Source: Amycolatopsis mongoliensis
GTDB taxonomy: Bacteria; Actinomycetota; Actinomycetes; Mycobacteriales; Pseudonocardiaceae
Reading direction: 5' to 3'
NCBI RefSeq assembly: GCF_030285665.1
Contig: NZ_CP127295.1
Coordinates: 7,936,001 to 8,000,000, forward strand
Length of the DNA: 64,000 bases
Shown here piece after piece: positions 24,009 to 51,602 of this stretch (positions are counted from its first letter, which is position 1; each line of letters begins with the position of its first letter). The notes under the pieces are model-generated. The model was given only the letters and a program-made list of their open reading frames with translations, had not been told where the DNA came from and made no database searches. The translations under genes and the position numbers were made by a program.

Positions 24009-24445
24009 AGTTCGGTCGCCACCTTCTCGAGTAGGGGTATCGCCGCGGCGAGCTGGTCCCGTTCGGCGGCGCTGAGCCGGTCGCGCAGCACCTGCTCGAT
24101 GCGGCCGAGGCTGGCGGCCTCCCGGTGCCGCAGGGTGCGCCGGCCCGCGAAGGTGATGGTCACGACCACCCGGCGGCCGTCCTCGGGGGCTTTGGCCCGG
24201 GTCACCAGGTGCCGGGCCTGCAGGTGGGTCAAGGTCGCCGCGACGGCGGCGCCGGTGACCCCTTCATCGCCCGCCAGCGCTCCGGGAGAGGTAGGTCCGG
24301 AGGCGTCGAGCCGGTGCAGGACGGCGAGTTCGAGGAAGCTGAGACCTTCGCCGGTGTCGACGTACATCCGCCGAAGGCGCCGGGCCACCCGGCCGACAGC
24401 GAGGCGCAGATCGCGAGCCAGCTCTGGTGGATCTTGTCCGGGCAT
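24005..24445 (-). CDS. MarR-family transcriptional regulator
   Basis: 146 residues from the ATG at 24445. Winged helix of MarR type: LSFLELAVLHRLDASGPTSP, then LAGDEGVTGAAVAATLTHLQ and the wing VTRAKAPEDGRRVVVTITFA. It dimerises through terminal helices. It heads a two-gene unit with the NTF2-like protein. A -10-like TAGATT ends seven bases before the ATG, so the message may be leaderless. It is divergent from the large 27-kb operon and might influence it, although the spacing (~190 bp) allows separate control. Confidence 0.88.
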   Translation of the reverse strand: MPGQDPPELARDLRLAVGRVARRLRRMYVDTGEGLSFLELAVLHRLDASGPTSPGALAGDEGVTGAAVAATLTHLQARHLVTRAKAPEDGRRVVVTITFAGRRTLRHREAASLGRIEQVLRDRLSAAERDQLAAAIPLLEKVATEL

Positions 24446-24637: not shown

Positions 24638-27190
24638 ATGACCATCGCCCGGCTGAAGTGGGCGGACACCGCCGCCACCGACCTGCACCTGATGCCCGGC
24701 CTTTCGTCGCCGGAGCTCGTCAGGCTGCTCCGCGTCGACGACCTCACCGACGCGACGCTCACGCAGGACCAGCCCTTGCCGGCAGATGCCAAGGTGACGT
24801 TCAAGCCGCAGCTGAAGACCGGCGTCGACCACGGCATCGAGGTGACGGCCGCCGGTGAGGTCACGGTGAAGACGCTCGCGCTGCGCGGGCATTCGTTCCT
24901 CCTCGGGGTCTCGCTGGACCAGGACCCGGCGATCACCACCCGCATCCGGATCCACGTGCACGAGAAGGTCTCCTCGCTGTGGCTCACCCCGGCGCGCCTG
25001 ACGGTGCGCCAGGGGTCCGCCCAGGCGCGGTTCTCGGTGCTCGGTCTGTTCGACCAGGTGCTCGACGGGACCGTGGTCGTCAGCGAGGGCGTCATCGGTG
25101 ACATCACCAACTGGTCGCCGTTCCGGGCGCCGAACGCGAACGAGCTCACCTACGTCCACCTCGCGCGCACGACCACCGCCGCGCTCACCTGGTCGGCCAC
25201 CGGCGGCCCGATCACCGTCGACGCCCGGACCGGGGTGCTCACCGCACCGGTCGAGTCGGGCCCGGACACCAAGGTGACGGCCACCGCCGCCGGGCTGCAC
25301 GCCGACGGCACGGCCGTCTGCGGCCCGTCCTGGTCCACCCACGTGCGGCTCGCGCACCTCGGCGGCCCCGGCGTGAAGCAGGTCGACACCGTGCCGAACA
25401 TCCTCTTCCTGCCCGACGGCTTCCAGGACACCGATGCCGACAAGGCGCAGTACAACCGGCTCGTCGGCATCGTCAAGGACCGGCTGGAGAGCCGGCCCCA
25501 CACCCGGCCGTACGCCGCCCTCACCGGCCGCGTCAACTACTGGCGGGGCTGGGTGCCCTCGCCCGACGCGGGGGTCACGGTGCTCGACGAACTCGACCCG
25601 AGCCCGGCTCCGGGAGAGCTCCCGGCGACGGCGGTGCCGCTGCCCCTGCCGAGCGCGACCCGCCCGGCCGCCGGCTGGTCGCTCGCCGATGTCGTCAACG
25701 CCATCGGCCTGCCGAACCCGGCCGACTACCCGGCCGGCACCACCGTTGAGAGCAAGATCGTATTCCTGCAGAACGTCTACGACGACTTGATCACCGAGGA
25801 CCTGCTCCGGCCACGGTTCGCCGAATGGGTCGCCCTCAACGACCGGCTGCTGCTCAACGAGCGTGACACCGCGTTCCACATGGCGTTCAGCGAGCGACCG
25901 TCGGCCGATGTGAACCTGCTCGAGCACCTCATCTCGCCGAACCCCCGCCGGATCTCCGACAACGACTTCAACAAGTTCCTCGACGCGCTCCGGGGCCCGG
26001 ACGACGACGTCCTCCCGGCCGGGCTCTGGTCGACCGGCAAGGACCGGAACCGGGTGGTCGTGCTCTGCCGGTCCTCCCGGTACGGCGGTCTCGCGAGCCG
26101 GCGCAAGGTGAGCGACGACTCGACCGGGCTCACCGTCGGGGTGAGCCTGGCCGCCCGCCCGTTCCACCGGGTGCGGCTCAACGACGGGGGCAACGGGTTC
26201 GACCTGAAGCCGGACGACATCCCCACCGACGTCTTCTACGGGGTGTGGCTGACCGTCGCCCACGAGCTCGGGCACTCCTTCGGCCTGGGCGACGAGTACG
26301 GCGGGAAGACCGCCGCGCCGACGCCGCTCAAGATCCGCCAGGTGCGGGCCACCCCCAACGTCCAGGACCGGGCCTCGCTCTCCGCGGATGGGACCCCGGC
26401 CGGGGCGATCGACACCAGCAAGATCAAGTGGGCCGAGTGGCCGCGGATCGCCAAGGCCGGGGTGCTGAAGAACGGAATGACGGCACCGGCCGTCGGCCCG
26501 TTCACCGTCGACCTCGTCGACGTCAAGGCGAGCAGGCTGCGGACCGACGACATCGTCATGTTCCGCCGCCGCCCACTGGCCACGGCCGGGCCACCATCCT
26601 CGATCTGCAAGATCATCGCGGCGGACCCGGCGGCCAACACGGTGACCGTCGAGCCGTTGTTCGGCGCGACCATCGCGATCTTCCCGGCCGGGAGCATCCT
26701 GCTGGCCTACGTCCGCAAGCCCGACCCCGACTTCAAGGCGAACAAGTTCGGCGGTCTGCTGACGCTGGCCGACCCGGACGTGCTCCAGCGCATCACCGAC
26801 ACGCAGAACCCGTTGAACGCCAACCCGATGAAGGGCGAAGCCGATCCGCCGAACGACGACCACGGCCGGGCGTGCGGCAATGTCAAGCTGCCGGTGCCGA
26901 CGTTCGCGACCAACTTCCCGCACCGCGCGGCGCCGAGGCCACCCGGCTTCTCGTACTGGACGATCGGGCTTTACGAGAACGGCAGCGAGCACAACTGCGG
27001 GATCTACCGCCCGACCGGCACCTGCGTGATGAACCGCCAGTTCTTCGTGGAGCCCAAGACGAAGTCCGTGAAGCTGGCCGACTTCTGCATCATCTGCCGC
27101 TACGCCTTCGTCGACAACGCCGATCCGACGCTGCACGGCGCGGTGGAGGCGGACTTCCGCGAGCGCTACGGGAAGCGAGGGGCGAGATGA
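24638..27190 (+). CDS. M64-type zinc metallopeptidase, first gene of the 27-kb operon
   Basis: 850 residues from the ATG at 24638 (GGGGGGACC upstream). About residues 240-560 resemble the IgA-peptidase M64 fold: VPNILFLPDGFQDTDADKAQ begins it and VAHELGHSFGLGDEY (around residue 541) gives HExxH zinc ligands, catalytic Glu and the downstream DEY. The N-terminal ~230 residues look like beta-sandwich domains, with an Ig-like segment around SSLWLTPARLTVRQGSAQAR. The C-terminal part has an insert and a cysteine-rich tail (NCGIYRPTGTCVMN, DFCIICRYAF) usual in M64 enzymes. No signal peptide is visible, which is odd for this normally secreted family. It overlaps the next gene by 4 bp (ATGA). Confidence 0.82.
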   Translation: MTIARLKWADTAATDLHLMPGLSSPELVRLLRVDDLTDATLTQDQPLPADAKVTFKPQLKTGVDHGIEVTAAGEVTVKTLALRGHSFLLGVSLDQDPAITTRIRIHVHEKVSSLWLTPARLTVRQGSAQARFSVLGLFDQVLDGTVVVSEGVIGDITNWSPFRAPNANELTYVHLARTTTAALTWSATGGPITVDARTGVLTAPVESGPDTKVTATAAGLHADGTAVCGPSWSTHVRLAHLGGPGVKQVDTVPNILFLPDGFQDTDADKAQYNRLVGIVKDRLESRPHTRPYAALTGRVNYWRGWVPSPDAGVTVLDELDPSPAPGELPATAVPLPLPSATRPAAGWSLADVVNAIGLPNPADYPAGTTVESKIVFLQNVYDDLITEDLLRPRFAEWVALNDRLLLNERDTAFHMAFSERPSADVNLLEHLISPNPRRISDNDFNKFLDALRGPDDDVLPAGLWSTGKDRNRVVVLCRSSRYGGLASRRKVSDDSTGLTVGVSLAARPFHRVRLNDGGNGFDLKPDDIPTDVFYGVWLTVAHELGHSFGLGDEYGGKTAAPTPLKIRQVRATPNVQDRASLSADGTPAGAIDTSKIKWAEWPRIAKAGVLKNGMTAPAVGPFTVDLVDVKASRLRTDDIVMFRRRPLATAGPPSSICKIIAADPAANTVTVEPLFGATIAIFPAGSILLAYVRKPDPDFKANKFGGLLTLADPDVLQRITDTQNPLNANPMKGEADPPNDDHGRACGNVKLPVPTFATNFPHRAAPRPPGFSYWTIGLYENGSEHNCGIYRPTGTCVMNRQFFVEPKTKSVKLADFCIICRYAFVDNADPTLHGAVEADFRERYGKRGAR

Positions 27191-30100: not shown

Positions 30101-31788
30101 CCGGCCTCAAGCGAGTCTCGGACACCGGCGACCGCTTCGCGATGGGACAGTTCCAGACCCTCTCCGACGCCGCCGCCCTGTCCCGTCCCTCCTACGAGAC
30201 CCAGGACGCCGGCCTCGAACTGACCGCCGACACCGCCCTCGCCACGGCCCGCGTCGTCCGCCGCAGCGCCCGCTACGAACTGCACGTCATCGACAGCACC
30301 GCCACTCCGGCGAGTCCTCGTGCGGCCGCCCTCGCCGCGCCGCAGAAGCGGTTCCACAGCGTCAGCGGGCCGGTCTTCGACGAACTGACCCGTGGCAGCA
30401 GCACCAGCCGCGCGGCGCTGTCGGCGCGGCAAGCCACGCAGAAGCAGCCGTTCGCGGCCACCGACGCCGTCCGCGTCACCGAACAGCGGTTCGTCGTCGC
30501 CTACCGCAAGAGCAATCGCCAGGCGTTCCCGCCCGGCGTACCGGGACGGCGGTCGCACGCGACCACCTTCCGCAGCCGGACCACGGCGGAGGACGCGCTC
30601 GCCGAGTTCGTCACCGCGGACCGGGCCTTGGACGGCCTGCTGCACGTGATCCCGGTGGCGGAGGCGGCGGTGTCCCCGGTCGCGTCCGGGACGTGGTCCG
30701 ACGCCGGGCCGCTGCCGGTGCCCGCGTCGGAGACCGACCTGGCCACGCTCGCCGACGGCCGCGTGCTGCTGGCCGGTGGCACCGCACCCGAAGGGTCGTC
30801 GCTCGCCGCCACGGCGTTGTTCGACCCGACCGCCGACGCGTGGTCCGCCGGACCGCCGCTGGCAACCGCACGCCGGCGGCACACCACCACCCGGCTCGGC
30901 ACCGGCCGCGTCCTCGCCCTCGGCGGGCGGTCCGGCACCGAGGTGCTCGCCTCGGCGGAGGTCTTCGACCCCGCCGCCGGCGCCTGGGCACCCGTGGCCG
31001 CGATGAGCACGGCCCGCCACGGCCACGCGGCTACCGCACTGCATGACTGGCGAATCCTCGTCACCGGCGGCAGCGGGGTCCGGACCGGCCAGGAAGACGG
31101 CGCACTCGCGTCGGCCGAGCTGTTCCACCCGGCCACCGGAACCTGGACCGCCACCGCCCCGATGGGTGACGCACGCACCGGGCACCAGGCGGTCGTCCTC
31201 GACGACGGCCGGGTCCTCGTCATCGGCGGCGCCGTCCCCACCGGGAGCGGCCGGGAAGAAGCACTGGCGTACTGCGAGCTGTACGACCCGGACAAGAACG
31301 AGTGGACCCCCACCGGAACCCTTTCCCAGGCCCGGAAAGGCCACCAGGCGACCGTGCTGCCCGGCGGACACGTGCTGGTCACCGGCGGCGATCCGGTCGT
31401 CGCCGCCGACGGCACCGTCGACCCGCACAGCCTGGCCACGGCCGAACTGTTCGACCCCGCCACGCAGAAGTGGTCCGCCGCGGCGGACCTGCCCGGCGGG
31501 CGCGCCCGCCACCGGAGCCTGCTCCTGCGCTCGGAGCTCGTCCTCGTCCTCGGCGGGACCGGTGCGCCGGAAGCGACGGCGGGCTACCGGTCCGTCCTGG
31601 CCTACGACCACACCGACGGCTCCTGGTCCACAGTGGACGGACTGGGCACCGGCCGGTCCGGCTTCGGCGTCGTGGAACTGGCCGACGACCGGGTCCTGGT
31701 CGCCGGCGGCGTCGCGAGCGCGGGCGCGGCCGCCGAAAACCCGGAAGCCGGCACGCCGGCCCAGCGCAGCGAGGTGCTCATACCGTGA
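27187..31788 (+). CDS. Giant DUF6603-like protein with C-terminal seven-blade Kelch propeller (copy 1)
   Basis: 1,533 residues from the ATG at 27187. Residues ~1-150 are helical; ~150-500 are repeated amphipathic beta strands; ~500-1115 are a long strand-rich region that I associate with DUF6603 (GLVGLNRGMNLAALVEGVRT, IGPMAKIGWGTPTLVTISLG). Residues ~1170-1528 carry seven Kelch/galactose-oxidase-type motifs, each ending in VLLAGG, VLALGG, ILVTGG, VLVIGG, VLVTGG, VLVLGG or VLVAGG, enough for a full propeller. No catalytic motif, signal peptide or membrane span is seen. The core is nearly identical in protein sequence to the gene at 35714. Function unknown; a scaffold, shell or binding role is my inference. 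Confidence 0.8.
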   Translation: MTDPAGDRGTLGLIAHHLVEAVRPLEDAFSDAAAFTTLMRQLGWQVPGLPPSYPAVAAAVTQAVNALELLSDGATVEEILAVVGKAGDVYRAISALTQAPAGIDPAVFLPGLARRIFEYLLGRQLLAEAPDWYAALEALGIIVPEFQPAAAGRADHVRVRFDWDRIPALLADPSPVPAAVYGWGTPNLAFGKLAELLAGLVAGLGLPVTLDQLSDDEIAPLHTEATRPPDETAGQGLTLMLGETALPGGTVAPIGLQLTGLPADGEALPGMILLPLVPDGVDAAVPLGGDWTLVVRAGTDLAQQLAVFARPGDVGVRYPGEPGRALPGAGFGVSLVFAPDTAVRLFGQPGQTRLELTGAKLDAAVDVRGGEPEVGFRAAVDGLALVVSAAGADGFLGTVLGDTELRVAIPAQLAWSSRTGLQFTTQAGLEVTVSPNLDLGFAHVDRVTLAVAADGTALATRAQAAFSGRFGPFAYVVDGFGVELPVAFTDGNAGPFDVGLHVTPPTGVGLAVDAGVISGGGFLSFDAERGEYAGALELELADFLAVKAIGVITTRLPGGARGFSLLIVLTAEFGTGLQLGAGFTLLAVGGLVGLNRGMNLAALVEGVRTGAIESVAFPKDVVANAPRILSDLARFFPPEQGTFLIGPMAKIGWGTPTLVTISLGVIIEIPGNVAVLGVLKAALPTADKPLLVVQAQFVGALELDKSRLWFFAKLFDSRVLTMTIEGGMGVLVAWGDNPDLVLTVGGFHPAYRPPPLPFPIPDRLSVDILNRSNQLIRVSGYFAITSNTVQFGAKAELRLGFSAFRVEGHLGFDALFQLSPFRFAIHIGAHVTLKAFGVGAFGIDLDFQLEGPAPWRAHGRGSIGFLFFSISANFDITWGEDRDTTLPPVAVLPLLANEIGKTEGWETRLPSGGTRALVTLRELPDTGELVLHPLGTLFVRQRALPLNVRLDRVGGQKAGDGKRFTIAPLDNTGLKRVSDTGDRFAMGQFQTLSDAAALSRPSYETQDAGLELTADTALATARVVRRSARYELHVIDSTATPASPRAAALAAPQKRFHSVSGPVFDELTRGSSTSRAALSARQATQKQPFAATDAVRVTEQRFVVAYRKSNRQAFPPGVPGRRSHATTFRSRTTAEDALAEFVTADRALDGLLHVIPVAEAAVSPVASGTWSDAGPLPVPASETDLATLADGRVLLAGGTAPEGSSLAATALFDPTADAWSAGPPLATARRRHTTTRLGTGRVLALGGRSGTEVLASAEVFDPAAGAWAPVAAMSTARHGHAATALHDWRILVTGGSGVRTGQEDGALASAELFHPATGTWTATAPMGDARTGHQAVVLDDGRVLVIGGAVPTGSGREEALAYCELYDPDKNEWTPTGTLSQARKGHQATVLPGGHVLVTGGDPVVAADGTVDPHSLATAELFDPATQKWSAAADLPGGRARHRSLLLRSELVLVLGGTGAPEATAGYRSVLAYDHTDGSWSTVDGLGTGRSGFGVVELADDRVLVAGGVASAGAAAENPEAGTPAQRSEVLIP

Positions 31789-33743
31789 CCCGGCCCCAGG
31801 ATTTCCGCCTGCTGATCGGCCCGGAGCCGTTCGACCCCATCGACGTGGCCCCCGGCGCGCTCGCGCCCGGCAAGAAGGCGACGGTCGTCCAGTTCACCGC
31901 CGCCCTGACCATCCCGGACGTCGCCCGCTTGAAGAGCGCGTACGGCCTGGTCCTCGACCGGTTCATCCCGAACCTGGCCTACCTCGAACACCTCGACGAC
32001 GCGACCGTCGCCAAGGTGCGGGCCGACTTCCTCGTCCGGACCTGCACCGCACTGGACCCGGCGCTGAAGCTCGCCCCTTGGATCCCCGCCACCGGCACGC
32101 CGCTCGCGCTGATCGTGACCTTGTTCGACGACACGGACCTCCCCGCCGTCCGGACGTCGCTGACCGCGGCCGGCGCCCGGGACGTCCAGGTCCTCGACAA
32201 CCGGGAGATCGGCAGCCACCCCGTCGCGCGGTGCGCGATCGACGACCGGTCGGCGCTGCCGCTGGTCGCGGCGCTCGACGACGTCGTCTGGGTGGAGCCG
32301 GAGCAGGCCACTGTGTCCTTCAACGTCGAAGCGGCGCAGACGATCCAGTCCGGCACGGTCGGCGAGCACGGCGGCACGATCTGGGACCAGAAAATACACG
32401 GCGAAGGCCAGGTGATCGACATCATCGAGGAGGGCGGCACGATCGACCTGAGCCACTGCTTCTTCACCGACGACCCGGTGAACATCCCCGGCCCGCTGCA
32501 CCGGAAGGTCCTCAAGCTCACCTCGAAGGCCGGCACCAAGGTGACCGAGCACGCCATGTTCGTCGCGGGTATCGCGGCGGGCGACGCACAAACCAACCAG
32601 GGCGCGCACCCGCACCGGGGCGGGGCGTGGGCGGCCAAGATCGTCTTCCGCACCCGGGACACCCACCTCGTGAACATGCTCGAGGACGGGATGAACGCCG
32701 GCGCCACGATTCACAACACCAGCTGGGGAGTCGAAAACCCGGACTACGACAAGACCGCGCGGGACGCCGACGACTTCAGCTTCCGCAACGAGGACCACGT
32801 GGTCGTCGGCGCCGCCGCGCCTTTCCACGGACCGAACGACAACAGGCCGCCCGGGATCGCCAAGAACGTCCTCTGCGTCGCAGCGGCCGAAGCGTTCCCC
32901 TTCGAGATGGACTATGGTGACGGGCAGCCCGGCCCGACCGTCCCCGACGGCCGCCGCAAGCCCGATCTCATCGCCGTGGGCGGTGGCATCAGCTCGGCGT
33001 TGCTCAACCCCGCGCCGGCCTCGGGGCCTTACTGCCTGACCGGCCCGCCGCAGGTCTTCGGCGCGACCGCCTCGAGCTGGGCGGCGCCGAACGCCGCGGC
33101 CGCGGCCGCGCTCGTGCGCCAGTACTTCACCGAGGGGTTCTACCCCCGCGGTGAGAGGCTGGGCAACCGGCCGTTCTTCCCGACCGGTGCGCTGATCCGG
33201 GCGGTGCTGCTCAACTCGACCGTCGACATGACCGGTTCCGGGCTCCCCACCGCCAGCCTCAAGGGCTACCCGACAGCCCTCGAGGGCTGGGGACGCATCC
33301 GGCTCGATCGCACTCTCTTCTTCCCGGGCAGTCCTCGCCGGTTGTTCGTTAACGACGTGCGGCACCTTGCCGGCCTGACGCTCGGACAGCAGGTGACCCG
33401 GCAGGTGTCCGTCGCCAACGGCAGCGAGATTCTCAAGATCACGCTGGTGTGGACGGACGTCCCACCGGCCGAGTCCCTGCACACCCTGCCGTCGCGCAAT
33501 TCCATCCGGCTGGACGTGGAGGACCCCGCGGGAGTCCGGTACCTCGGCAACGACATCGACCGGACCACCGGGTTCTCCCGGCCGTTCGCACCAGCTACGT
33601 CCAGCGGGGCGGACCTCCGCAACAACGTCCAGATGGTCATCGTCGAGCACCCACCCGCCGGCCCCTGGAGGATCTCGCTCCACGGGGACCTGATCTTCGA
33701 GCAGCAAGGCTACGCACTCGTGGTGTCAGGAGCCTTGAAATGA
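31785..33743 (+). CDS. Subtilisin-like (S8) protease with altered active site
   Basis: 652 residues, GTG start overlapping the upstream stop by 4 bp. An N-terminal ~190-residue domain starts with DFRLLIGPEPFDP, then comes the S8 fold and a C-terminal jelly-roll (ITLVWTDVPPA, NNVQMVIVEHPPAGPWRISL) like that of KP-43-type subtilases. His256 (TEHAMFVAG) and Ser431 (TASSWAAPNAA) are in place. The Asp position reads IIEEGGTIDLSH, with Glu215 where its neighbour has Asp, plus a one-residue insertion. The oxyanion Asn region reads GAAAPFHG without the Asn. It may be weakly active or inactive. No signal peptide. Tandem paralogue of the next gene. Confidence 0.82.
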   Translation: MTRPQDFRLLIGPEPFDPIDVAPGALAPGKKATVVQFTAALTIPDVARLKSAYGLVLDRFIPNLAYLEHLDDATVAKVRADFLVRTCTALDPALKLAPWIPATGTPLALIVTLFDDTDLPAVRTSLTAAGARDVQVLDNREIGSHPVARCAIDDRSALPLVAALDDVVWVEPEQATVSFNVEAAQTIQSGTVGEHGGTIWDQKIHGEGQVIDIIEEGGTIDLSHCFFTDDPVNIPGPLHRKVLKLTSKAGTKVTEHAMFVAGIAAGDAQTNQGAHPHRGGAWAAKIVFRTRDTHLVNMLEDGMNAGATIHNTSWGVENPDYDKTARDADDFSFRNEDHVVVGAAAPFHGPNDNRPPGIAKNVLCVAAAEAFPFEMDYGDGQPGPTVPDGRRKPDLIAVGGGISSALLNPAPASGPYCLTGPPQVFGATASSWAAPNAAAAAALVRQYFTEGFYPRGERLGNRPFFPTGALIRAVLLNSTVDMTGSGLPTASLKGYPTALEGWGRIRLDRTLFFPGSPRRLFVNDVRHLAGLTLGQQVTRQVSVANGSEILKITLVWTDVPPAESLHTLPSRNSIRLDVEDPAGVRYLGNDIDRTTGFSRPFAPATSSGADLRNNVQMVIVEHPPAGPWRISLHGDLIFEQQGYALVVSGALK

Positions 33744-35674: not shown

Positions 35675-35675
35675 C

Positions 35676-35723
35676 ATGAACGACTTCCGCACCGAGTCCA
35701 CCGGAGGCACCGGATGGCACTGA
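35676..35723 (+). CDS. 15-codon mini-ORF between the protease and giant-protein genes
   Basis: ATG at 35676 opens MNDFRTESTGGTGWH, ending in a TGA that overlaps the next gene's start region. The first residues mirror the beginning of both proteases (MTDFRVWIGPEP, PQDFRLLIGPEP). It may be the stump of a third protease gene, now serving as a coupling leader for the gene at 35714. Too short to support on codon use. Confidence 0.3.
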   Translation: MNDFRTESTGGTGWH

Positions 35724-40255: not shown

Positions 40256-40275
40256 CGTCAGCGAAGGAAACCACG

Positions 40276-41445: not shown

Positions 41446-44400
41446 GCCCGAACGCCTACACCTTCCTGCCCTGGCTGCGGTCGGGGATCAGCACCCGGGT
41501 GACGACCCCGCCGCAGGCCGGCGTGCGGGCCACCGTCAAGGTGCAGCTGCTCGTCTCCGGCGACCCGATCACCGGGCACGAAACCCTGACCCAGCCGGTG
41601 AACCGCGACGTCCAGCTGTACGGGCCAGGCGACGTCATCGGCGTCGACCCGCGGGCGATCTCGCGCACCGAACCGCGGCCCGGCGTGCCGAACGTCGAGC
41701 CGAACTACCTGGCGCACATCGAGTTCTCCGAGGAGGACTTCCTCTGGCGCTACAGCCCGGCCGCCGCGGACGGGCACACCGCCCGGCTCACGCCCTGGCT
41801 GGCGCTCGTCGTGCTCGCCACCGGAAGCGAGTTCACCGAGGTCCCGGCGACCGGCGGGCCGCTGCCCGCGATCACCGTCGCGGACCCGGCGGGCACGCTG
41901 CCGCCGGCGGACCAGCTCGGCGCCTGGGCGCACGTGCACGTCAACGGCTCGCTCGCCGACCCGGTCGCCACCGACGGCACGACCGCCGCGCTGGCCGCGC
42001 TCACCGAAGTGGTGCGCACCAACGCCGACAACGCCTGCTCCCGGCTGATCTGCCCGCGCCACCTGCAGCCGAGCACCGCGTACGAGGCCTTCCTCGTGCC
42101 GACGTTCGAGTCCGGCCGGCTCGCCGGGCTCGGCCTGGACCCGGCGGTGGCGCCGAACGCGCTGTATTCGAGCTGGGGCCCGCACTACGCGAACCGCCCG
42201 GCCGAGGGCGTCCTGCCGTACTACCACCGCTGGGCCTTCGCCACCGGCACCGCGGGCGACTTCGAGTTCCTGGTCCGGCTGCTCCGCCCGCAGGCCCCGG
42301 ATCCGCGGATCGGCAAGCGGGACCTCGACGTCCACCGGGGGCCCGGCCTGGATCTGCCGCCCATCTCCGACCAGGGTGGCGTGCTGCCGCTGCGGGGTGC
42401 GCTGAAGGTGCCCGAACGCGCCGGCGACCCGATCGACCCGGCGGAGAACTGGGACCACTTCGTCGACACCGGGGTGGCCCCGCCCTACCCGCACCCGTTC
42501 GAGGAGGCCATGGCCGGCCTGCTCAACCTGGCCGACGACTACCAGCGCCACCAGCCCGCGGCGGCCCACGCCGCGAGCCTCGCCGCGGTCGCCGGCCCGG
42601 ACCCGATCATCACGCCGCCGCTGTACGGGCGCTGGCACGCGCTGACCACCCGGCTGCTCGACGACGAGAACGGCACCCCGGTGTCGCCGGAAGTCCTGCG
42701 CGGCTGGCTGCACCGGCTCAACCTCGACCCGCGTTTCCGGATCGCGGCGAACCTCGGCACCCAGGTGGTCCGCGCCCGCGACGAGGAGCTGATGGCCGCG
42801 GCCTGGGCCCAGGTCGGCGACGTCCTGGTCGCGAACGGCCGGATCCGGGCCGCCCAGCTCGCCCGCGAGGTCGGAAACGTGTTGCAGGCCAAGCACATCG
42901 ACCCGCCGACGGGTAGCGGGCCGGCGGCGCTCGCCGCCGCTCCGGCCTCGGCGCCGGGCCGGTCGCTGACGCTCACCGCACCGGCACATTCGCGGGTGAC
43001 GACCGCGGCGAGCAGTGGCACCTTCGCCGCCGCGGCGGGGGCCGACGGCCTCGTCGCCGATCCTTCGAGCCAGGTCGCCGTCGGGTTCCGGGTGGCGAGC
43101 AGCCGGGTCGCGACCGCGCCCGTTTCGCCCGCGATGCGCCGCATCACGCGTCCCGGCTCACGGTTGATGCGAACCCTGCCCTTCACCGGCCAGTCCGCGG
43201 CCGCGCTTCTGTCCAGGATGGACGCTCCGGTCGATCCGGTCGTCGCGGCGCCGGTCAAGGTCACCCCCGGGGCGCTCGTCACGCCGCGGGACCTGGCGGC
43301 GACCCTGCACCCGGACCGGCCGCCCGGCGCGGATCCCGTCGACTCCCTGCCGCGGAGCCCGGACTTCGTGCTGCGCGCCCTCGGCGACCCGGTCGCGCCG
43401 CACCCCGGTACCTCCGACAGCGCCGAGGCGCAGCGGTTCAAGGTCGCGTTGCGCGAGCTGCACCAGGGCTTCGACGCCGGGGTGGCGGTCGGGCGCGTGA
43501 AACCCTCGCCGCCGCTGGACCTCGTCGAGACGACCACCTCGGTGCTCGCCGGGCTGCGCGCCGAGGAGACCGTGCCCCGCGCGCTGCTCGAAGGATCGGT
43601 CAGCCTGCCCGAACGGCTGCGGCCCTTCGCTGCGGGGTTCATCGAGGCCATGGCCTACCCCGTGTTCGACGTGCCGACCTACCGGACGCTGCTGGACGTC
43701 TCGGTCGACAGCCTCGTCCCGAACCTGAGCCTGCTGCCGCCGAACTCGATCACGCTGCTGGCGAACAACCGCGAATTCATCGAGTCGTTCCTCGTCGGCC
43801 TCAACCACGAGATGGCCCGCGAGCTGCTGTGGCGGGAGTATCCGACCGACCAGCGCGGGACGCCGTTCCGGCAGTTCTGGGACCCGGTCGCGACGCTGCC
43901 CGTGCCGAACGAGACCGTCGCGCAGCGCCGCGAGCGGGGCTACGACATCCCGCCGATCCACCAGTGGCGGCCCGCGACCCGGCTGGGGGACAACGAAAAC
44001 CGGCAGCCCGACGACCCGCGCCCCGGCGGCCCGCAACGCGACGACCTCGTCCTGGTCGTCCGCGGCGAGCTGCTCAAGAAGTACCCGACGGCCGCGATCT
44101 ACGCGCAGCGCGCGCAGTTCCCCGGGAACGACCCGAACCAGCCCCGGGAACTGGCCGACCTGCCGGCCGACGGCCTCCCGTCGCCCGAGCAGATCCGGCT
44201 GCCCCGGTACGAGGCGAAGGTCGAGCCGGACATCTACCTGCTCGGCTTCGACCTCGACGCCGACGAGGCACTGGGCGAGCCGGGCGTCGACCCCGGCTGG
44301 TTCTTCGTGCTGAAGGAACGTCCCGGCGACCCGCGCTTCGGCGTCGACGACGGACCGCCCACCCACGTCGAGGTGTGGAACGACCTCACCTGGGACGACG

Positions 44401-44624
44401 TCGACCCCGGCCGGAGCGGGTTCCTCGAGCTGGATCCGGCCGTCCAGGTCGCCCTGGGCGACTTCGACCACTCGGACGACGACCGCGAGAAGAAGGACCA
44501 GCGCGCCGAGGACGAGAACCTGCCGCTCTGGTTCTCGGGCCTCGGTTCGGCCGACCTCGCCTACATCCTTTTCCAGGTCCCCGTCATGGTGGCCGTGCAC
44601 GCACAGGAGATGTTGCCGCGATGA
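41442..44624 (+). CDS. Large uncharacterised protein (1,060 residues)
   Basis: GTG start overlapping the previous stop (GTGA). I do not recognise a family with confidence. The N-terminal ~200 residues begin SPNAYTFLPWLRSGISTRVT and look beta-rich. Around residues 480-530 there is an Ala/Ser-rich low-complexity linker. The C-terminal half has a distinctive, conserved-looking block LLANNREFIESFLVGLNHEM followed by ARELLWREYPTDQRGTPFRQ, then an acidic stretch (DFDHSDDDREKKDQRAEDEN). No signal peptide, membrane span or enzyme motif. The coupling to its neighbours implies a shared complex or pathway. Confidence 0.7.
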   Translation: MSPNAYTFLPWLRSGISTRVTTPPQAGVRATVKVQLLVSGDPITGHETLTQPVNRDVQLYGPGDVIGVDPRAISRTEPRPGVPNVEPNYLAHIEFSEEDFLWRYSPAAADGHTARLTPWLALVVLATGSEFTEVPATGGPLPAITVADPAGTLPPADQLGAWAHVHVNGSLADPVATDGTTAALAALTEVVRTNADNACSRLICPRHLQPSTAYEAFLVPTFESGRLAGLGLDPAVAPNALYSSWGPHYANRPAEGVLPYYHRWAFATGTAGDFEFLVRLLRPQAPDPRIGKRDLDVHRGPGLDLPPISDQGGVLPLRGALKVPERAGDPIDPAENWDHFVDTGVAPPYPHPFEEAMAGLLNLADDYQRHQPAAAHAASLAAVAGPDPIITPPLYGRWHALTTRLLDDENGTPVSPEVLRGWLHRLNLDPRFRIAANLGTQVVRARDEELMAAAWAQVGDVLVANGRIRAAQLAREVGNVLQAKHIDPPTGSGPAALAAAPASAPGRSLTLTAPAHSRVTTAASSGTFAAAAGADGLVADPSSQVAVGFRVASSRVATAPVSPAMRRITRPGSRLMRTLPFTGQSAAALLSRMDAPVDPVVAAPVKVTPGALVTPRDLAATLHPDRPPGADPVDSLPRSPDFVLRALGDPVAPHPGTSDSAEAQRFKVALRELHQGFDAGVAVGRVKPSPPLDLVETTTSVLAGLRAEETVPRALLEGSVSLPERLRPFAAGFIEAMAYPVFDVPTYRTLLDVSVDSLVPNLSLLPPNSITLLANNREFIESFLVGLNHEMARELLWREYPTDQRGTPFRQFWDPVATLPVPNETVAQRRERGYDIPPIHQWRPATRLGDNENRQPDDPRPGGPQRDDLVLVVRGELLKKYPTAAIYAQRAQFPGNDPNQPRELADLPADGLPSPEQIRLPRYEAKVEPDIYLLGFDLDADEALGEPGVDPGWFFVLKERPGDPRFGVDDGPPTHVEVWNDLTWDDVDPGRSGFLELDPAVQVALGDFDHSDDDREKKDQRAEDENLPLWFSGLGSADLAYILFQVPVMVAVHAQEMLPR

Positions 44625-47600
44625 CCGCCTTGAGTGACGACTTCCCGGTGCTGCTGGGCCCGGTCCGGCTCGAAACCCGGTTCACGCCGACCGAGCTGCT
44701 GGTCCGGGTGTTCCCGGACGAGTGGTCGGTGGACAAGTTCGAAACGAAGCCGACGGCGGCCGAGATCGGCGCGGTCGACGCCTACTGGACCGCCCGGTGG
44801 GCCGCCGCGAAGCGGCCGGTCCCGCTGGCGGCCGCGTGGCAGGAGCTGACCGGGCGCGTGGCCGCGGGGCGCGCCGCCTGGCTGCTGACCACCCGGGTCC
44901 CCGCGAACCCCGCCGACGAGCCGGCCGGACTTCCCGCCACCACCGTCGTGCTGGTCGTCCGGACCACGGCCGCGGTGGCCGCGAACGACAAGGCGCCGAC
45001 CGTCGCGTACTGGACCGCGGTGTGGCGCGCCCACGGCGACCGGCTGCTGCTGCGGCAGGCCGACGCCGCCCTGCGCGCCGCGGTGAACAACAACGACACG
45101 CGGGCGAACGCGATCCGCGCCCGCCGTCCGTCCGGAGTGGACGGCGCGCCGGTGAACCCGGCCAACGACGTGGCGGTCGCGTTCCTGGTGCTCCCGGCAC
45201 CCGCCGCGAACAGCACGGCGGCGGATTCGTGGACGCAGCCGGCGCGGGCCCGGCTGCTGCCGGACCGCTTCCAGGTGCGCGGATACCTCGGGAGCCGCCA
45301 GGTCGTGTCGGTCACGGGGGCGGCGGTGCCGGCGACGCTGCCGGTCAGCCCGGACCCGAACGCCGCCGACCAGATCAGCGTGAACGAGCAGACCGGCGCC
45401 CTGCACGTCCCGGACGAGCTGCGCTGGCTGACCGACTTCGACCGCGCGGTCGCGGTCGGGATGGGCGTGCGGATCCCGCTCACCGACGAGATCCGCGGCG
45501 GGCTCGACCGGCTCGTCGCGTTCGGGCTGCGCGAGCAGTCCACGCCGGCCAAGACCGCGACCGACTTCGCCGACCTCATCACCCGGCAGCTGCGCAGCCC
45601 GGACGGGTTCAGCCTGCTGCCACAAGGGACGCCGACGAACAACACCGACGTGCTGGCCGCCGGGCAGGACGCGGAGGAAGAGGCGGCCGCGGCGCTGCGC
45701 AGCACCACCGGCGCGGCCGCGGCCGCCGCGGCGGACTGGACGAGCCGGACCGACGGCCGGGTGTTCGCCGACCTGCTCGGCCTCGACCCCGCCACCCTGA
45801 CCGGGATGCCGAACGCCGACCGCACCGACCAGCGCGACGCGCGGGCCGCCAACACCGCGCTGTGGCCGGCGACCTGGGGCTACTTCCTGCAGACCGCGCT
45901 GAACCCGCTGCTCGGCCCGGCCGCGGTCGCCGCCACCCGCGACTTCTTCCTGAAGTACGTCTCCGGCCGCGGCCCGCTGCCGGCCGTCAAGATCGGGCGG
46001 CAGCCCTACGGCATCCTGCCGACGACGGTGTTCTCCAAGCTCGCCTACCCCGACTCGGCCACCCACCGCCGCGCGCTGAACAAGGTGCTGACCGCGGCGG
46101 GCGTGGACTGGACGGCGGCCGTCGCCCGGGTGCCGCGCCTGGACCCCGGCGCGCCGGACCCGCACCAGCGACTGCTGGACCTCCTGGCGCTGCACCCGAC
46201 CTCGGCCGAGTACCACCAGCGGTACGCGCAGAGCGTCGAGGACCTCTTCAACCGGGAGAACCTCGGCGGGCTGGGCTCGACCGTCCTGCCGGCCCTCGAC
46301 GCGCTGGGCCTGCCGGGACCGGTGCGGGCGCTGCTCGCGCGGTTCGGCGCGGACACCGGCCCCGGCCGGGATCCGGACCTGCTGCGCCGGCTGTTCACCG
46401 ACTTCCAGCAGCCGATCCTGGCCCCGCTCGTCGACGACCGCCCGCTGTCGGAGACCGACCGGATCCGGGACTACACCCCCGACCACAAGAACTACGTGCG
46501 GTGGCTGGCCGACCTGGCCGGCGGCGACCCGGCGGCCACCGACCTCGACGCGATCCGGCTGGAGCTCGGCTTCACCGACGACACGCCCCCGGCGGCGTTG
46601 CTCTACCTGTTGCTGCGGCACGCGGTCCTGCTCGGCTGGGACGACGCGGCCCGGGCCCTCGCGAGTGCCGCCGGGGTGCCCGGACTGTCCACAGCGGACT
46701 CGCCGTTCGTCCACGTCCGGATCCCGGCGACCGGCGAGCAGGCGCTCAGCGAGAGCCGGTTCCGGCTGCTGTACTCCCCCGCGACCGCCGTCACCGGCAA
46801 CCCGGAGCAACTGCTCGTCGACTTCATCCCGGGTGTGCTGCACCAGCCGGGGCCGACCGCCGCGCTGGCCGAGCAGGTCACCGCGCTCGGGCTGCTGGCC
46901 GACCTGCCGACGGCCAAGCTGGAGCGGGTGCTCGCCGAGCACCTCGACCTGGCCGCCTACCGGCTCGACGCCTGGCGGCTGGGGCTGGCCACCGAACGGC
47001 TGGCCGAGCTGCGGTTCGGGCCCGGCGGCACCGGCACCGCGAAGCCGGGGCTGCACCTGGGCGCGTACGGCTGGCTGGAAGACGTCCGCCCGAGCACGGA
47101 CCCGCTCACCCCGGTCACCCTCACCGGCCCGCTCGCCACGGTGTTCGCCGGCGGGAAACCGTTGCTGCACGACGAAAAGAACGAAGGCTTCGTGCACACG
47201 CCGTCGCCGGGACACGCCCGGACCGCGGCCGTGCTGCGGGCCGGCTACGCCGCCAACCGCACCCCCGAAAACCCCGGCACCTTCGCGGTGAACCTCGGCT
47301 CCGGACGCGTCCGCGTCGCGCTGGGCATCCTCGCCGGGCTGCGGCAGGGCCAATCGCTGGGGGCGCTGCTCGGCTACCGGTTCGAGCGCGGGCTGCACGA
47401 CCGCCACGCCGAGGCCGAGGTCGACCGCTTCATCGCCGGGCTGCGGCTCAAGTTCCCGCTGCGCGCGGGGAAGATCACCGAGACCGCGGCCGAGCCGGAC
47501 AAGATCACGCAGGTCGAGGCCGGGAACGTCGTCGACGGTCTCGCGCTCGTCCGGCACCTGGCCGGGGCCGGGGTGTCGCAGACCTACCCGTTCGGGCTCG

Positions 47601-49846
47601 CCGGGCTGCCCGAAGCGAACACCGACCAGGCCAAGGCGATCAGCGACGAGGCGGCGCTGCTGGTCGACGCCAACGACGCCGTCGCCGACCTCGCCGTCGC
47701 CGAGTCCGCCCACCAGGCGCTCGCCGGCAACGTCGAGCGGGCCTCGGCGACGCTCGACGCCTACGCCAAGGACGGCCTGCCGCCGGAGCCCACGGTGATC
47801 GAGACGCCGCGCAGCGGCACGACGCTCACCCACCGGTTCGGCCTGCGGCTGCGGACCGGGCTGAACCCGGGCGGCGGCGACTCGCCCCGCGCCAAGGCCG
47901 AACCCGCGGTCGACGACTGGCTGCCCAGCCTGCTGCCATCGCCGAGGTCCGTCGCGGCTCGGGTCACCTGGACCGACGAGGACGGGCACCCGCGGCACCA
48001 CGACGTCACCCAGGACGAGCTGGACCTGTCGCCGATCGACCTGCTCTGGGCCGTGCGGCCGACCGGTGACCCGGCCATGGCCGAGCTCGACGACCGGATC
48101 ATCGGGGTCGTCGTCGAGGACGACCACCCGCGTCCCGACGCCGAGCTGACCATCCGGTACACCGAGCAGATCGACGGCAAGATCACGTTCTTCCAGCTGT
48201 CTCCGCTGGTCACGGCGCTGCGGACGCTGCTGACCACCGGCCGGCCGCTGCGGCCGACCGACCTCGTCCCCGCGGCCGGGTCCGCCGCGGTGGACCGGAG
48301 TCTCGACGACGCCGTCACCGTCACGCGGCGGCGGCCGGAAGCGGTGCGGGACGCCCTCGGCCGCCTGGCCGACGACGTGGCCGGCTACATCGGGGACGTG
48401 GCGAAGCTGTACCCGCCGTCGCCTGCGCCGCCGAAGCGCGCCGACGTGCTCGACCGCATCGACACGCTGCTGACGCGCTACGCCGACCTGGTGACCACCG
48501 CGGCCGGCTTCGGCGTGGTCCGCAGCGGCTGGGGTGAGCTGATCACGTGGCGGCGCGGGGTCTTCTCGGCCGTGCTGGCCGCCGTCGCCGCCGTCGCCGA
48601 CCGGATGGCCGGTGCGCTCGCCGCCGCCAACGCCCTGCTCACCGCGTACGACGCGCTGCCGAAGTCCACTCCGGACGCCGAGCGCATCCGGCTGCTGCGG
48701 CAGGCGGAACGGCTGGTCGTCACGACGCCGGCCCTCGATCCGAAGACCCCGAACGAGTTCCGCTCGGCGGTCCGCCACAAGCGGGACGACTTCGCCGACC
48801 GGCTCAAGGACCTCCAGGACGTCGCCGGGACCCACCGCACGACGCTCAGCGACCTGCTGGACGACGTCGGCCGGCTGTCGGTCGCCGCCTTCGACCCCAC
48901 GGGCCTCGACCTGACCGCGGTGCAGGACCAGGTGGTGGGGTTCGGCCGTGAACTGCTGACCCGGGCCCGTGCGCTGCAGACCGACGTCACCGGCCGGCTG
49001 GCGGCGGCGAACACCGCGCTCACCGGTTTCGACCAGGCCGTGACCCCGGCGGACCGCACCAAGTCCGCCATCGAGGCACTGCAGGCGATGCTCGGCACGG
49101 ACGTCCTCGTGGTGCCCGAGTACGCGCTGCCGGACCAGCTGGCCGAGGACCTGCACGACGCCCTCGACGACAGCAACGACCTGGTGGCGCACCTGACGCA
49201 GGCGCCGGTCAACCGGGACTTCCCGGTGGACGACTGGCTGCACGGCATCGCCCGGGTCCGCGAAATGCCGCGGCTCTGGGAACGCGTCGTCCTGCTCGGT
49301 GACGCGCTGCGCGGCAACGACGGCCTGCTCGGCAGCAACGCCGAGAACGACGACGACACGCGGCTGCAGCCGATCCAGCTGCCGCTGCGGTCGGGCGACC
49401 ACTGGCTCGGCATGGAGTTCGCGGCCGGCGCCGACCTCACCGAAGACCGGTTGCTGTTCACGGCGCACTACGCGACCCAGCCGTCGCGCAACGCCGACAG
49501 CGAGTGCGGACTGCTCTTCGACGAGTGGACCGAGGTGATCCCCGCCGAGCGGGAGACCACGAGCATCGCCGTCCATGCGGACAGCCCGGATTCCGAGCCG
49601 CCGCAGGCGATGCTGCTGGTGACCCCGCCGGTGAAGACCGGGACCTGGGCCGCCGACGACCTCGTCGCCGCCGTCAACGAAACCTTCGACCTGGCCAAGA
49701 CACGGCTCGTCGAACCGGTGCACCTGGACGACACCGGGTACGCGCAGCTCCTGCCGGCCACCGTGCTGTCGGCCACCCGGCAGCCGATCACGATCAGCAC
49801 CGACCTGGCGATCGCCAACTCCCGCTGGAAGGCAGACCATGAGTGA
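44621..49846 (+). CDS. Very large uncharacterised protein (1,741 residues)
   Basis: ATG overlaps the previous stop (ATGA). It begins FPVLLGPVRLETRFTPTELL, a form suggesting a beta-strand module. Around residue 900 lies a strongly conserved-looking block: VRVALGILAGLRQGQSLGAL then LGYRFERGLHDRHAEAEVDR. Residues ~1300-1500 are helical with heptad-like content (coiled-coil possible). A region near the middle (RGPLPAVKIGRQPYGILPTT) is also distinctive. I recognise no catalytic motif, signal peptide or membrane span. It is the largest product of the operon and, by position between two other unknowns, probably works with them. Confidence 0.7.
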   Translation: MTALSDDFPVLLGPVRLETRFTPTELLVRVFPDEWSVDKFETKPTAAEIGAVDAYWTARWAAAKRPVPLAAAWQELTGRVAAGRAAWLLTTRVPANPADEPAGLPATTVVLVVRTTAAVAANDKAPTVAYWTAVWRAHGDRLLLRQADAALRAAVNNNDTRANAIRARRPSGVDGAPVNPANDVAVAFLVLPAPAANSTAADSWTQPARARLLPDRFQVRGYLGSRQVVSVTGAAVPATLPVSPDPNAADQISVNEQTGALHVPDELRWLTDFDRAVAVGMGVRIPLTDEIRGGLDRLVAFGLREQSTPAKTATDFADLITRQLRSPDGFSLLPQGTPTNNTDVLAAGQDAEEEAAAALRSTTGAAAAAAADWTSRTDGRVFADLLGLDPATLTGMPNADRTDQRDARAANTALWPATWGYFLQTALNPLLGPAAVAATRDFFLKYVSGRGPLPAVKIGRQPYGILPTTVFSKLAYPDSATHRRALNKVLTAAGVDWTAAVARVPRLDPGAPDPHQRLLDLLALHPTSAEYHQRYAQSVEDLFNRENLGGLGSTVLPALDALGLPGPVRALLARFGADTGPGRDPDLLRRLFTDFQQPILAPLVDDRPLSETDRIRDYTPDHKNYVRWLADLAGGDPAATDLDAIRLELGFTDDTPPAALLYLLLRHAVLLGWDDAARALASAAGVPGLSTADSPFVHVRIPATGEQALSESRFRLLYSPATAVTGNPEQLLVDFIPGVLHQPGPTAALAEQVTALGLLADLPTAKLERVLAEHLDLAAYRLDAWRLGLATERLAELRFGPGGTGTAKPGLHLGAYGWLEDVRPSTDPLTPVTLTGPLATVFAGGKPLLHDEKNEGFVHTPSPGHARTAAVLRAGYAANRTPENPGTFAVNLGSGRVRVALGILAGLRQGQSLGALLGYRFERGLHDRHAEAEVDRFIAGLRLKFPLRAGKITETAAEPDKITQVEAGNVVDGLALVRHLAGAGVSQTYPFGLAGLPEANTDQAKAISDEAALLVDANDAVADLAVAESAHQALAGNVERASATLDAYAKDGLPPEPTVIETPRSGTTLTHRFGLRLRTGLNPGGGDSPRAKAEPAVDDWLPSLLPSPRSVAARVTWTDEDGHPRHHDVTQDELDLSPIDLLWAVRPTGDPAMAELDDRIIGVVVEDDHPRPDAELTIRYTEQIDGKITFFQLSPLVTALRTLLTTGRPLRPTDLVPAAGSAAVDRSLDDAVTVTRRRPEAVRDALGRLADDVAGYIGDVAKLYPPSPAPPKRADVLDRIDTLLTRYADLVTTAAGFGVVRSGWGELITWRRGVFSAVLAAVAAVADRMAGALAAANALLTAYDALPKSTPDAERIRLLRQAERLVVTTPALDPKTPNEFRSAVRHKRDDFADRLKDLQDVAGTHRTTLSDLLDDVGRLSVAAFDPTGLDLTAVQDQVVGFGRELLTRARALQTDVTGRLAAANTALTGFDQAVTPADRTKSAIEALQAMLGTDVLVVPEYALPDQLAEDLHDALDDSNDLVAHLTQAPVNRDFPVDDWLHGIARVREMPRLWERVVLLGDALRGNDGLLGSNAENDDDTRLQPIQLPLRSGDHWLGMEFAAGADLTEDRLLFTAHYATQPSRNADSECGLLFDEWTEVIPAERETTSIAVHADSPDSEPPQAMLLVTPPVKTGTWAADDLVAAVNETFDLAKTRLVEPVHLDDTGYAQLLPATVLSATRQPITISTDLAIANSRWKADHE

Positions 49847-51602
49847 GCCCCGCATCGCCGACCTCGCCGGCGCGCTGCTCCGCCGCGAAAACCCGACGGT
49901 CGGCGTCTGGAACCGGCTGGAGGGCCGGCCGCGCACGACCGACTTCGCGCGGGCGCTGCGAGCCGAAGTGCGTGACCCGTTGTGGCTGCTGGCCCGGCAG
50001 TGGCAGCTCGGCGAGTTCCGCGGCAGCGACGCCGGTTCGCCGGTGACCGCCACCTACTCGGTCACGGCGAGCGCGCCGGGCCGGTTCCGCTCCGACGTCG
50101 GACCGGACGGCACGGCGGGCCCGCTGCCGCCGGACCGTCCACTGGAGACGGTGGCCGAGCGGCGGCCGCTGCCGTTCGCGTTCGGCGCCGAGCCGATCTC
50201 GTTCGACCTGCGCCTGGCGCTGGGCCGCCGGTGGCTGCGGCTGCTCGCGCGGTCGTCGGGGCTGCGGAACACGGCCGGGCAGTTCGTCGGGCTGTACCCG
50301 ATCGCGCTGCCCGGCCCGGACGACGCCGCGCAGCTCGCCCACCCCGAGGTCTGGGCGGCGACGCAGGCGGTGGCCGGCCGCCGGCTGGACGGCTATCTGC
50401 TGTACCAGCACCTCAAAGGGGGCGGGCACGCCTCCGACGGGATCCGGAGCCTGTCGCGCCAGCAACGGACCCAGCTGGACGCGCTGGGTCCCCGGCTGAC
50501 CGGCTGGTTCGACGACCTCATCGACCAGCCCGGCGGGATCACGCCGGACCGGCCTTCGGGCGATTCGGCGTGGGACCCCCGGCGGCTGGAGCACCGCTTC
50601 TCGATCGCCGCCGGCGACCAGGTGCTCTCCGCGCCGGAGTACCCCGGCGGGGAGCTGGACTGGCACGCGTTCTCCGCCGCGCCGGGGTCGCTGGGCAGCA
50701 CCCCGGCGCCGGTGACGTTCAACCGGACCGTGTTCCCTTCGCCGGTGCGCTACTCCGGCATGCCGCTGCCCCGCTGGTGGGCGGTCGAGGACGGCAAGAC
50801 GAACTTCGCCGCGGTCACCCCGGACAGCACCGACCTGGCCCGGCTGATCTTCCTCGAGTTCGCGCTGGTGTTCAGCAACGACTGGTACCAGCTGCCGTGC
50901 GACCTGCCGGCCGGCACGCTCGCGTCGGTCCAGGGCCTGTGCGTGACCGACGTGTTCGGCGAGCGGCGCTGGATCACCCCGGCCGGCGCCGCCGAGCACT
51001 GGTCGATGTACACCCTCGGCGCCGGCCCCGGCATCCTGCTGCCGCCCGGCACCCCGAAGGTGGCGACGGGCCCGGCGCTCGAGGACGTGGCCCTGGTCCG
51101 CGACGAGAGCGCCAACCTGGTGTGGGGGATCGAGCAGACGGTGCGGACCACGACGGGCGAAGGCCGGTCGGGCGACGAGATGGCGGCCGAATCGCTCGCG
51201 TTCCGCCGCCGTCGGCACCCGGAACCGGCTCCGGACGACCCGCGCGCGCCGATCGCGTACGACGTGATCAGCTCGGTGCCGGAGAACTGGATCCCGTTCG
51301 TCCCGGTCCACGTGCCGGGCGACAGCCGGGCGGTCCAGCTGCAGCGCGCGGCGATGCTGAGCGAGGTGGACGCGAGCAAGATCCGCCCGAGAACGGCGCT
51401 GCTGCGCGAGGGTTTCGACCACGGCGATGCGTACTTCGTCAACGAGGAGGAGGTCCCGAGGTCGGGCACCCGCCTGACGGTTTCCTACAACCGCACCCGC
51501 ACGAAGACCGGCCGGGTGGCCCTCTGGCTGAGCGTCCGCCGCGACGTCGGCCGCGGCGAACGCTCGAGCGGCCTGTCGTTCGACCTGGCGAAGGGAACGT
51601 GA
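49839..51602 (+). CDS. Uncharacterised 587-residue protein, last gene of the operon
   Basis: ATG overlaps the previous gene by 8 bp. The N-terminal motif FARALRAEVRDPLWLLARQW followed by QLGEFRGSDAGSP is highly distinctive and probably the family signature. The middle has tryptophan-rich segments (GMPLPRWWAVEDGKTNFAAV, FSNDWYQLPCDLPAG) and the C-terminus IPFVPVHVPGDSRAVQLQRA. No signal peptide, span or known catalytic motif. The 27-kb gene run ends here; a convergent tetR gene lies 10 bp downstream, with no obvious hairpin between them. Confidence 0.7.
   Translation: MSEPRIADLAGALLRRENPTVGVWNRLEGRPRTTDFARALRAEVRDPLWLLARQWQLGEFRGSDAGSPVTATYSVTASAPGRFRSDVGPDGTAGPLPPDRPLETVAERRPLPFAFGAEPISFDLRLALGRRWLRLLARSSGLRNTAGQFVGLYPIALPGPDDAAQLAHPEVWAATQAVAGRRLDGYLLYQHLKGGGHASDGIRSLSRQQRTQLDALGPRLTGWFDDLIDQPGGITPDRPSGDSAWDPRRLEHRFSIAAGDQVLSAPEYPGGELDWHAFSAAPGSLGSTPAPVTFNRTVFPSPVRYSGMPLPRWWAVEDGKTNFAAVTPDSTDLARLIFLEFALVFSNDWYQLPCDLPAGTLASVQGLCVTDVFGERRWITPAGAAEHWSMYTLGAGPGILLPPGTPKVATGPALEDVALVRDESANLVWGIEQTVRTTTGEGRSGDEMAAESLAFRRRRHPEPAPDDPRAPIAYDVISSVPENWIPFVPVHVPGDSRAVQLQRAAMLSEVDASKIRPRTALLREGFDHGDAYFVNEEEVPRSGTRLTVSYNRTRTKTGRVALWLSVRRDVGRGERSSGLSFDLAKGT

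Follow-up and report, generated by a model that had tools for sequence, protein, structure and literature searches.

A conserved four-gene core of bacteria and haloarchaea that travels with an exchangeable enzyme gene

In bacterial gasdermin systems, a protease gene adjoins a protein that is expected to act on membranes. Proteases have been acquired repeatedly by immune loci, and nuclease–protease pairs occur in Hachiman and AVAST (PMC12799240). In conflict systems with effector-associated domains (EADs), one small domain is common to effector enzymes that are otherwise unrelated, trypsin-like enzymes among them, and can also form a protein by itself (PMC8195603). Here we describe an operon of nine genes, g1 to g9, in a stretch of 64,000 nucleotides from Amycolatopsis mongoliensis (contig NZ_CP127295.1, positions 7,936,001 to 8,000,000 of the forward strand), which is called the window below. 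The operon, at 24638-51602 on the plus strand, is a member of a previously undescribed gene system that is widespread in bacteria and haloarchaea. Its constant part is a core of four genes, coding for DUF6603, g7, g8 and g9; the position directly upstream of DUF6603, the enzyme slot, is filled differently from locus to locus.

The nine genes are supported by codon-position composition and by the geometry of their starts and stops. Seven of the eight junctions overlap, six by 4 bp and one by 8 bp, and g4 and g5 are separated by a gap of 39 bp. An earlier reading, made from the letters and open reading frames (ORFs) of this DNA (the sequence-only reading), had described nine genes on one strand with overlaps of 4–8 bp nearly throughout, which we confirmed. 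It had also named gene families: an M64-type metallopeptidase (g1, which scores below the cut-off), two S8 proteases, two DUF6603–Kelch proteins, a free propeller and three large unassigned proteins. Its total of ≈8,100 residues was too low, since the nine products sum to 8,977 residues. The source genome is a single contig of 10.81 Mb, in which DUF6603 occurs twice, both times in this operon, and g9 once; the best matches, of 93% to g9 and 96% to g5, are in keeping with Amycolatopsis as the source. The genes are as follows:

24638-27190, plus strand: g1, 850 residues, M64-like zinc metallopeptidase, enzyme slot, with HELGHSFGLGDEY at residue 542
27187-31788, plus strand: g2, 1533 residues, DUF6603 at residues 437-995 and a C-terminal Kelch propeller; paralogue of g5
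31785-33743, plus strand: g3, 652 residues, S8 subtilase-like, probably inactive (by alignment)
33740-35674, plus strand: g4, 644 residues, S8 subtilase with predicted Asp/His/Ser triad and oxyanion Asn (by alignment)
35714-40255, plus strand: g5, 1513 residues, DUF6603 at residues 423-984 and a C-terminal Kelch propeller
40252-41445, plus strand: g6, 397 residues, free Kelch propeller (Pfam)
41442-44624, plus strand: g7, 1060 residues, core family, no Pfam or NCBIfam match
44621-49846, plus strand: g8, 1741 residues, core family, no Pfam or NCBIfam match
49839-51602, plus strand: g9, 587 residues, core family, no Pfam or NCBIfam match; probe of the wider search

Short gene overlaps alone are ordinary in high-GC operons; this operon is more than a chance arrangement because it is conserved as a unit elsewhere. 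With g9 as the probe, relatives were found in 6/296 genomes of the phylum and 14/297 genomes of the family, the window genome being counted in both. Up to 60 kb of DNA was fetched around 19 loci in 17 of the 18 further genomes with g9 (genomes and loci are given below by G and L numbers); in the remaining genome, G269, a fragment of g9 makes up part of a contig of 3.2 kb. The genes for DUF6603, g7, g8 and g9 were present in the same order and on the same strand in all 19 fetched loci, and no gene family outside the unit occurred in more than 8/20 loci. In G193, g8 and g9 are fused into a single open frame of 2,101 residues, which fits a physical assembly.

A g9 profile run over one genome per species gave 395 confirmed stretches, of which 80 were kept for analysis. 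By their titles, the kept stretches come from Actinomycetota, Cyanobacteriota, Myxococcota, Pseudomonadota, Planctomycetota, Acidobacteriota, Bacteroidota and Chloroflexota. In 79/80 kept loci, g8 precedes g9 on the same strand; the sole lone g9 (L135) is a partial match. We found g7 in 73/80 loci, with less than 6 kb of upstream DNA in six of the seven misses, and DUF6603 was in view in 62/80. When 26 g9-bearing records were searched whole, Pfam DUF6603 scored above the cut-off in 24 of them, versus 0 of 14 control genomes. The misses were a Methylocystis genome, where our own profile found a short DUF6603-like ORF (L133), and a faecal "phage" record. This record (MT835531, "Bacteriophage sp.", unverified) carries g8 and g9 relatives at L161 2704-9958, and is probably a contig from a bacterium that was deposited as phage.

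The four core genes share one history, because their pairwise protein distances correlate over 40 loci with r of 0.92–0.97 (Mantel test), the highest value among 999 permutations being 0.32. Loci left out of the 40-locus tree include L145 and L206 (split DUF6603), L163 (split genes), L220 (another gene order) and the high-GC loci L129, L134 and L121. The sequence-only reading had proposed that the genes form one system, with singly scattered homologues as the observation that would speak against it. The homologues were not scattered, and the proposal is supported because g8 and g9 are linked in 79/80 loci and the core genes have a common history.

The enzyme slot usually contains one gene, or two to three, and its content varies between loci. 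We found M64 peptidases, S8 subtilases, NAL1-type trypsin-like proteins, DUF7800-containing PhoD-like proteins, one PLDc_2 protein and one WD40 protein; M64 genes also occur in tandem, three in two Larkinella and two in Spirosoma. Pfam supplied the slot labels of some loci (20 proteins scanned, five without an informative match), and some of its matches, such as those of G352b to NAL1 and of G051 to PhoD, are below the cut-off; our own profiles and ORF clusters supplied the rest. With these labels, a recognized hydrolase is present in 33 of the 40 tree loci (M64 in 9, PhoD in 9, trypsin-like in 8, S8 in 6 and PLD in 1). When the labels were placed on the concatenated-core tree (FastTree with SH-like support values, some branches being long), the fewest changes needed were 10 among M64, S8, trypsin-like and PhoD, and 15 over all labels other than "not in view". 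Changes occur even inside one bacterial family, and G352 holds two copies of the system, one with an S8 slot and one with a trypsin-like slot.

Judged by their sequences, the slot enzymes examined keep their catalytic motifs, g3 excepted. HExxH...DEY is kept in 14/14 printed M64 proteins, GDSG in 10/10 full trypsin-like proteins printed, and the His and Ser motifs in 6/6 S8 proteins; ten PhoD-like slot proteins have invariant Asp and His residues in common. On a Nocardia plasmid, an S8 gene follows g9 and overlaps it by 4 bp. A further slot type, lacking a clear Pfam match, was seen at L217 7077-11428, L197 7345-10922 and L207 8103-11219, in a cyanobacterium, Lewinella and Chitinophagaceae; the N-termini appear similar by eye, and one neighbor of this type has a Beta-lactamase2 match slightly under the cut-off.

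In the window, the Pfam M64 model scored 21.8 bits on g1, which leaves g1 outside the family by score (cut-off 26), while M64 slot relatives reached 39 bits (G301) and 78 bits (G108). The HExxH of g1 is followed by DEY, a combination that we take to be the mark of M64, and the ORF cluster of g1 is also found upstream of DUF6603 in G301, G442, G388 and G380. DUF6603 (Pfam PF20248) matched g2 with 403 bits and g5 with 401 bits (cut-off 27), with the model nearly fully covered. Both g3 and g4 have S8 matches in Pfam. When g4 was aligned with KP-43 (1wmd), the Asp/His/Ser triad, at what we take to be the S8 triad positions, and the oxyanion Asn were all present. In the alignment of g3, Glu replaces the catalytic Asp and the oxyanion Asn is lost; His and Ser are kept. 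Because g4 retains the catalytic residues and g3 is without the Asp and the oxyanion Asn, the two look like a pair of active protease and pseudo-protease.

The window has the slot and the DUF6603–Kelch pair doubled, with M64 and g2 followed by the two S8 genes and g5. The DNA identity between g2 and g5 is 82–90% from about residue 548 to 1145, and 55–70% ahead of it, and this jump in mid-gene suggests gene conversion between them. The ORF cluster of the free propeller g6 is present in 12/20 loci, the window included. WD40 propeller genes were also seen joined to the unit: one at L164 17962-20603, on a Streptomyces plasmid, lies 3' of g9 with a 4-bp overlap, and another, L076 6473-7546, precedes DUF6603 in G193. 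Since the WD40 genes join the unit at different places, it may have gained its various kinds of propeller in separate events.

Some of the slot enzymes have a domain in common. A profile built from three small proteins adjoining trypsin-like slots revealed an undescribed domain of ≈121 residues, a putative docking domain, which forms the C-terminal part of S8 and trypsin-like slot proteins (one of them has two copies) and also occurs as a stand-alone protein. The domain was found in 19 of 2,221 called ORFs, comprising 4 S8, 12 trypsin-like and 3 stand-alone proteins, with overlap between some loci. In 21 whole genomes, where up to 150 first-look candidates were scored per genome (five genomes having longer lists), there were at least 21 matches in 13 genomes; 20 of 21 were in the slot, and one was on a broken trypsin-like relative elsewhere. 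Two S8 slot proteins, from Myxococcota and Acidobacteriota, did not match the profile, and a Pfam search with the domain gave no match at a meaningful E-value.

The core proteins g7, g8 and g9 had no match in Pfam, NCBIfam, PADLOC or PHROGs and no significant match in the PDB, and no known fold was matched by g9. DUF6603 of g5 was modelled as a long amphipathic β-sheet, with the apoB belt, porins and ushers as the nearest structures; gasdermin was not among the 50 structural matches listed. Strand amphipathicity was 3.37 for DUF6603 and 1.45 after shuffling, while a dozen g9 strands had none (1.79 versus 1.80). Going by the model, the DUF6603 sheet probably binds lipid or inserts into the membrane. 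In the open-access PMC literature, we found no paper that names DUF6603 and nothing on this cluster.

DUF6603 was found in 9/296 genomes of the phylum. Five of these have g9; of the other four, three were inspected and contain a second type of cluster. In this type, which is without g8 and g9, DUF6603 is accompanied by a protein distantly related to g7 (hhalign E of 1e-4 across 224 columns) and, in the loci where it comes into view, by a giant protein of ≈1,200–1,500 residues. It was seen at L221-L225, L256 (11845-18377), L257 and L258, and its hosts are Chitinophaga, Leptolyngbya, Pyrinomonadaceae, Planctomycetota and actinobacteria. Because the second type has DUF6603 and a g7 relative in the absence of g8 and g9, the oldest part common to both types may consist of DUF6603 and the g7 superfamily.

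The system is also found on plasmids. There are 14 plasmid records with g9, and 13 of the same 14 have DUF6603, including four from haloarchaea (Salinigranum, Halobellus, Natrinema and Halalkalicoccus). A Streptomyces anthocyanicus plasmid carries a lone g9 near IS5 transposases (L166 12127-19806), with no DUF6603 match on the record; this gene is a remnant of the unit. One plasmid-borne copy sits between recombinases. On a Rhizobium plasmid (L163 10038-17926), profile matches showed g7 and g8 each as two overlapping ORFs, and a Halobellus plasmid (L259 18265-23891) has several smaller genes at the expected place of g7.

We read these loci, with a probability of roughly 0.4, as one modular system in which a scaffold docks and aims an exchangeable hydrolase, most likely in microbial conflict. 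We infer that the amphipathic DUF6603 sheet would lie at the membrane, with g7, g8 and g9 building a scaffold in the cytosol, and that the Kelch propellers, which have been added in many actinobacteria, are likely recognition parts. The scaffold would hold a metallo-, subtilisin- or trypsin-like peptidase, or a PhoD- or PLD-like enzyme, in some clades via the shared C-terminal docking domain. Upon sensing a threat or a partner at the membrane, it would release or aim the hydrolase, and the same platform could thus serve different killing or restriction chemistries, as in effector-swapping defence systems. The patchy distribution, the plasmids, the recombinases, the remnant, the duplicates with different enzymes and the shared domain fit a conflict system best. 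A bolder form of this reading, which we put forward only tentatively, is an unnamed immune or conflict machine found in bacteria as well as archaea. Four large families would form a cytosolic complex, docked on the membrane by an apoB-like sheet, which would load one of many unrelated hydrolases, partly via its own docking domain, and would fire it on a signal read by the propellers.

The main rival is an exported weapon, in which the core would be a delivery or targeting particle that brings the hydrolase to competitors as its payload. We consider this unlikely, even though payload swapping is typical of delivery systems and the slot hydrolases (M64, KP-43-like S8, PhoD and PLD) are similar to enzymes that often act outside the cell. 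It would also suit a weapon that one slot protein matches PG_binding_1 and that surface or lamin-tail domains are annotated in relatives of g8 and g9 from haloarchaea. However, none of the nine proteins has a signal-like hydrophobic N-terminus by a plain hydropathy scan, no dedicated predictor having been run. As the sequence-only reading had stated, there is no likeness to secretion or phage-tail genes: no sheath, tube, baseplate, exporter or other phage-tail or secretion family scored above its curated cut-off in the nine proteins, Secretin reaching 15.6 bits on g6 against a cut-off of 27.5. PHROG matches were located in the Kelch regions, with one more, weak, on g4, and g9 had neither a viral fold match at E ≤ 0.001 nor a confirmed relative in the viral contig collection. 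Moreover, no immunity-like gene recurs beside the slot in 20 loci.

Two other explanations have to be weighed against the scaffold with a swappable hydrolase. The sequence-only reading had suggested a large assembly processed by its own proteases, which would mature the giant subunits. Proteases are indeed the commonest slot enzymes (M64, S8 or trypsin-like in 23/40 loci), and two S8 proteins, one apparently active and the other probably inactive, adjoin in the window. As a general role this is too narrow, because the slot also holds PhoD-like enzymes (9/40) and a PLD-like one (1/40), and the core as such therefore seems to need no protease; a WD40 protein takes this place elsewhere, one of the two S8 proteins of the window is without its full set of catalytic residues, and protease families replace one another while the core stays. 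We regard such self-processing as improbable. It is equally doubtful that the system is a housekeeping lipid or granule complex, in which DUF6603 would be a coat or carrier of lipid in the manner of the apoB belt, with the cargo modified by the slot enzyme: the commonest slot enzymes are peptidases, and both the patchy occurrence within one family (14/297) and the plasmid-borne copies would be odd for housekeeping genes.

Several observations speak against a conflict scaffold with an exchangeable hydrolase. No NTPase, nuclease, TIR, STAND or other hallmark of conflict signalling was matched in the nine proteins by Pfam or NCBIfam. PADLOC 2023 gave nothing beyond a generic subtilase model, which matched g3 and g4, with no hallmark of a listed system, and on ten slot proteins of relatives it gave subtilase and weak IetS matches on 1/10 only. 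The statement of the sequence-only reading that nothing resembles known defence genes thus stands for named families; it does not extend to the logic of an exchangeable enzyme, which is that of conflict systems. The DUF6603 model has a predicted template modelling (pTM) score of 0.46, and its structural matches have root-mean-square deviations (rmsd) of 8–16 Å. The putative docking domain had no match in the window genome among the candidates scored, nor in the M64 and PhoD slot proteins. Seven of the 40 loci have no recognized hydrolase (three with an unassigned type, two with another kind and two with none in view), and no enzyme gene immediately precedes DUF6603 on the Rhizobium, Streptomyces NBC_01724 and S. 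europaeiscabiei plasmids. Slot labels are clustered on the tree, with 17 changes compared to 25.7 after shuffling (eight labels), and exchange is therefore occasional: repeated, not constant. Gene order is not invariant either, as a second Leptolyngbya copy (L220 102-12510) has g8, g9, a PhoD-like gene and DUF6603 on one strand. Finally, the flanks of the operon (18749-24367 and 51613-56238) contain a Lnt-like acyltransferase, amidohydrolases, MarR and TetR regulators and an epoxide hydrolase; 4/10 scanned flanking genes had no Pfam match, and those with a match are ordinary metabolic genes and regulators.

Three of the four core families match nothing named, yet they are found together as a unit across eight bacterial phyla and in haloarchaea. 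If the scaffold reading is correct, this would be a new platform in prokaryotic conflict biology and would provide a function for DUF6603, and a direct test would be possible by keeping the core and changing the enzyme. The putative docking domain provides a handle for finding further loci.

The Pfam name of DUF6603 marks it as a domain of unknown function; here it is the constant partner of g7, g8 and g9 or of the second cluster type. Its model resembles the apoB-100 β-belt, porins and ushers in being an extended antiparallel β-sheet with one hydrophobic side, and differs from them in the rmsd range given above, the low identity (4–12%), the lack of a signal-like N-terminus and the occurrence of relatives in archaea. 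Unlike in gasdermin systems, the membrane candidate resembles a long meander sheet, and the slot is also filled with enzymes other than proteases. As in Hachiman and AVAST (PMC12799240), a trypsin-like protease is an exchangeable part of the locus, whereas no nuclease family was matched in the nine genes and the slot enzymes belong to several classes. The EAD systems (PMC8195603) differ in that Pfam found no NTPase here and the core consists of four large families. The putative docking domain of the relatives, which is found on S8 and trypsin-like enzymes and standing alone, may correspond in principle to an EAD, and in both kinds of system effectors are exchanged while the rest remains constant.

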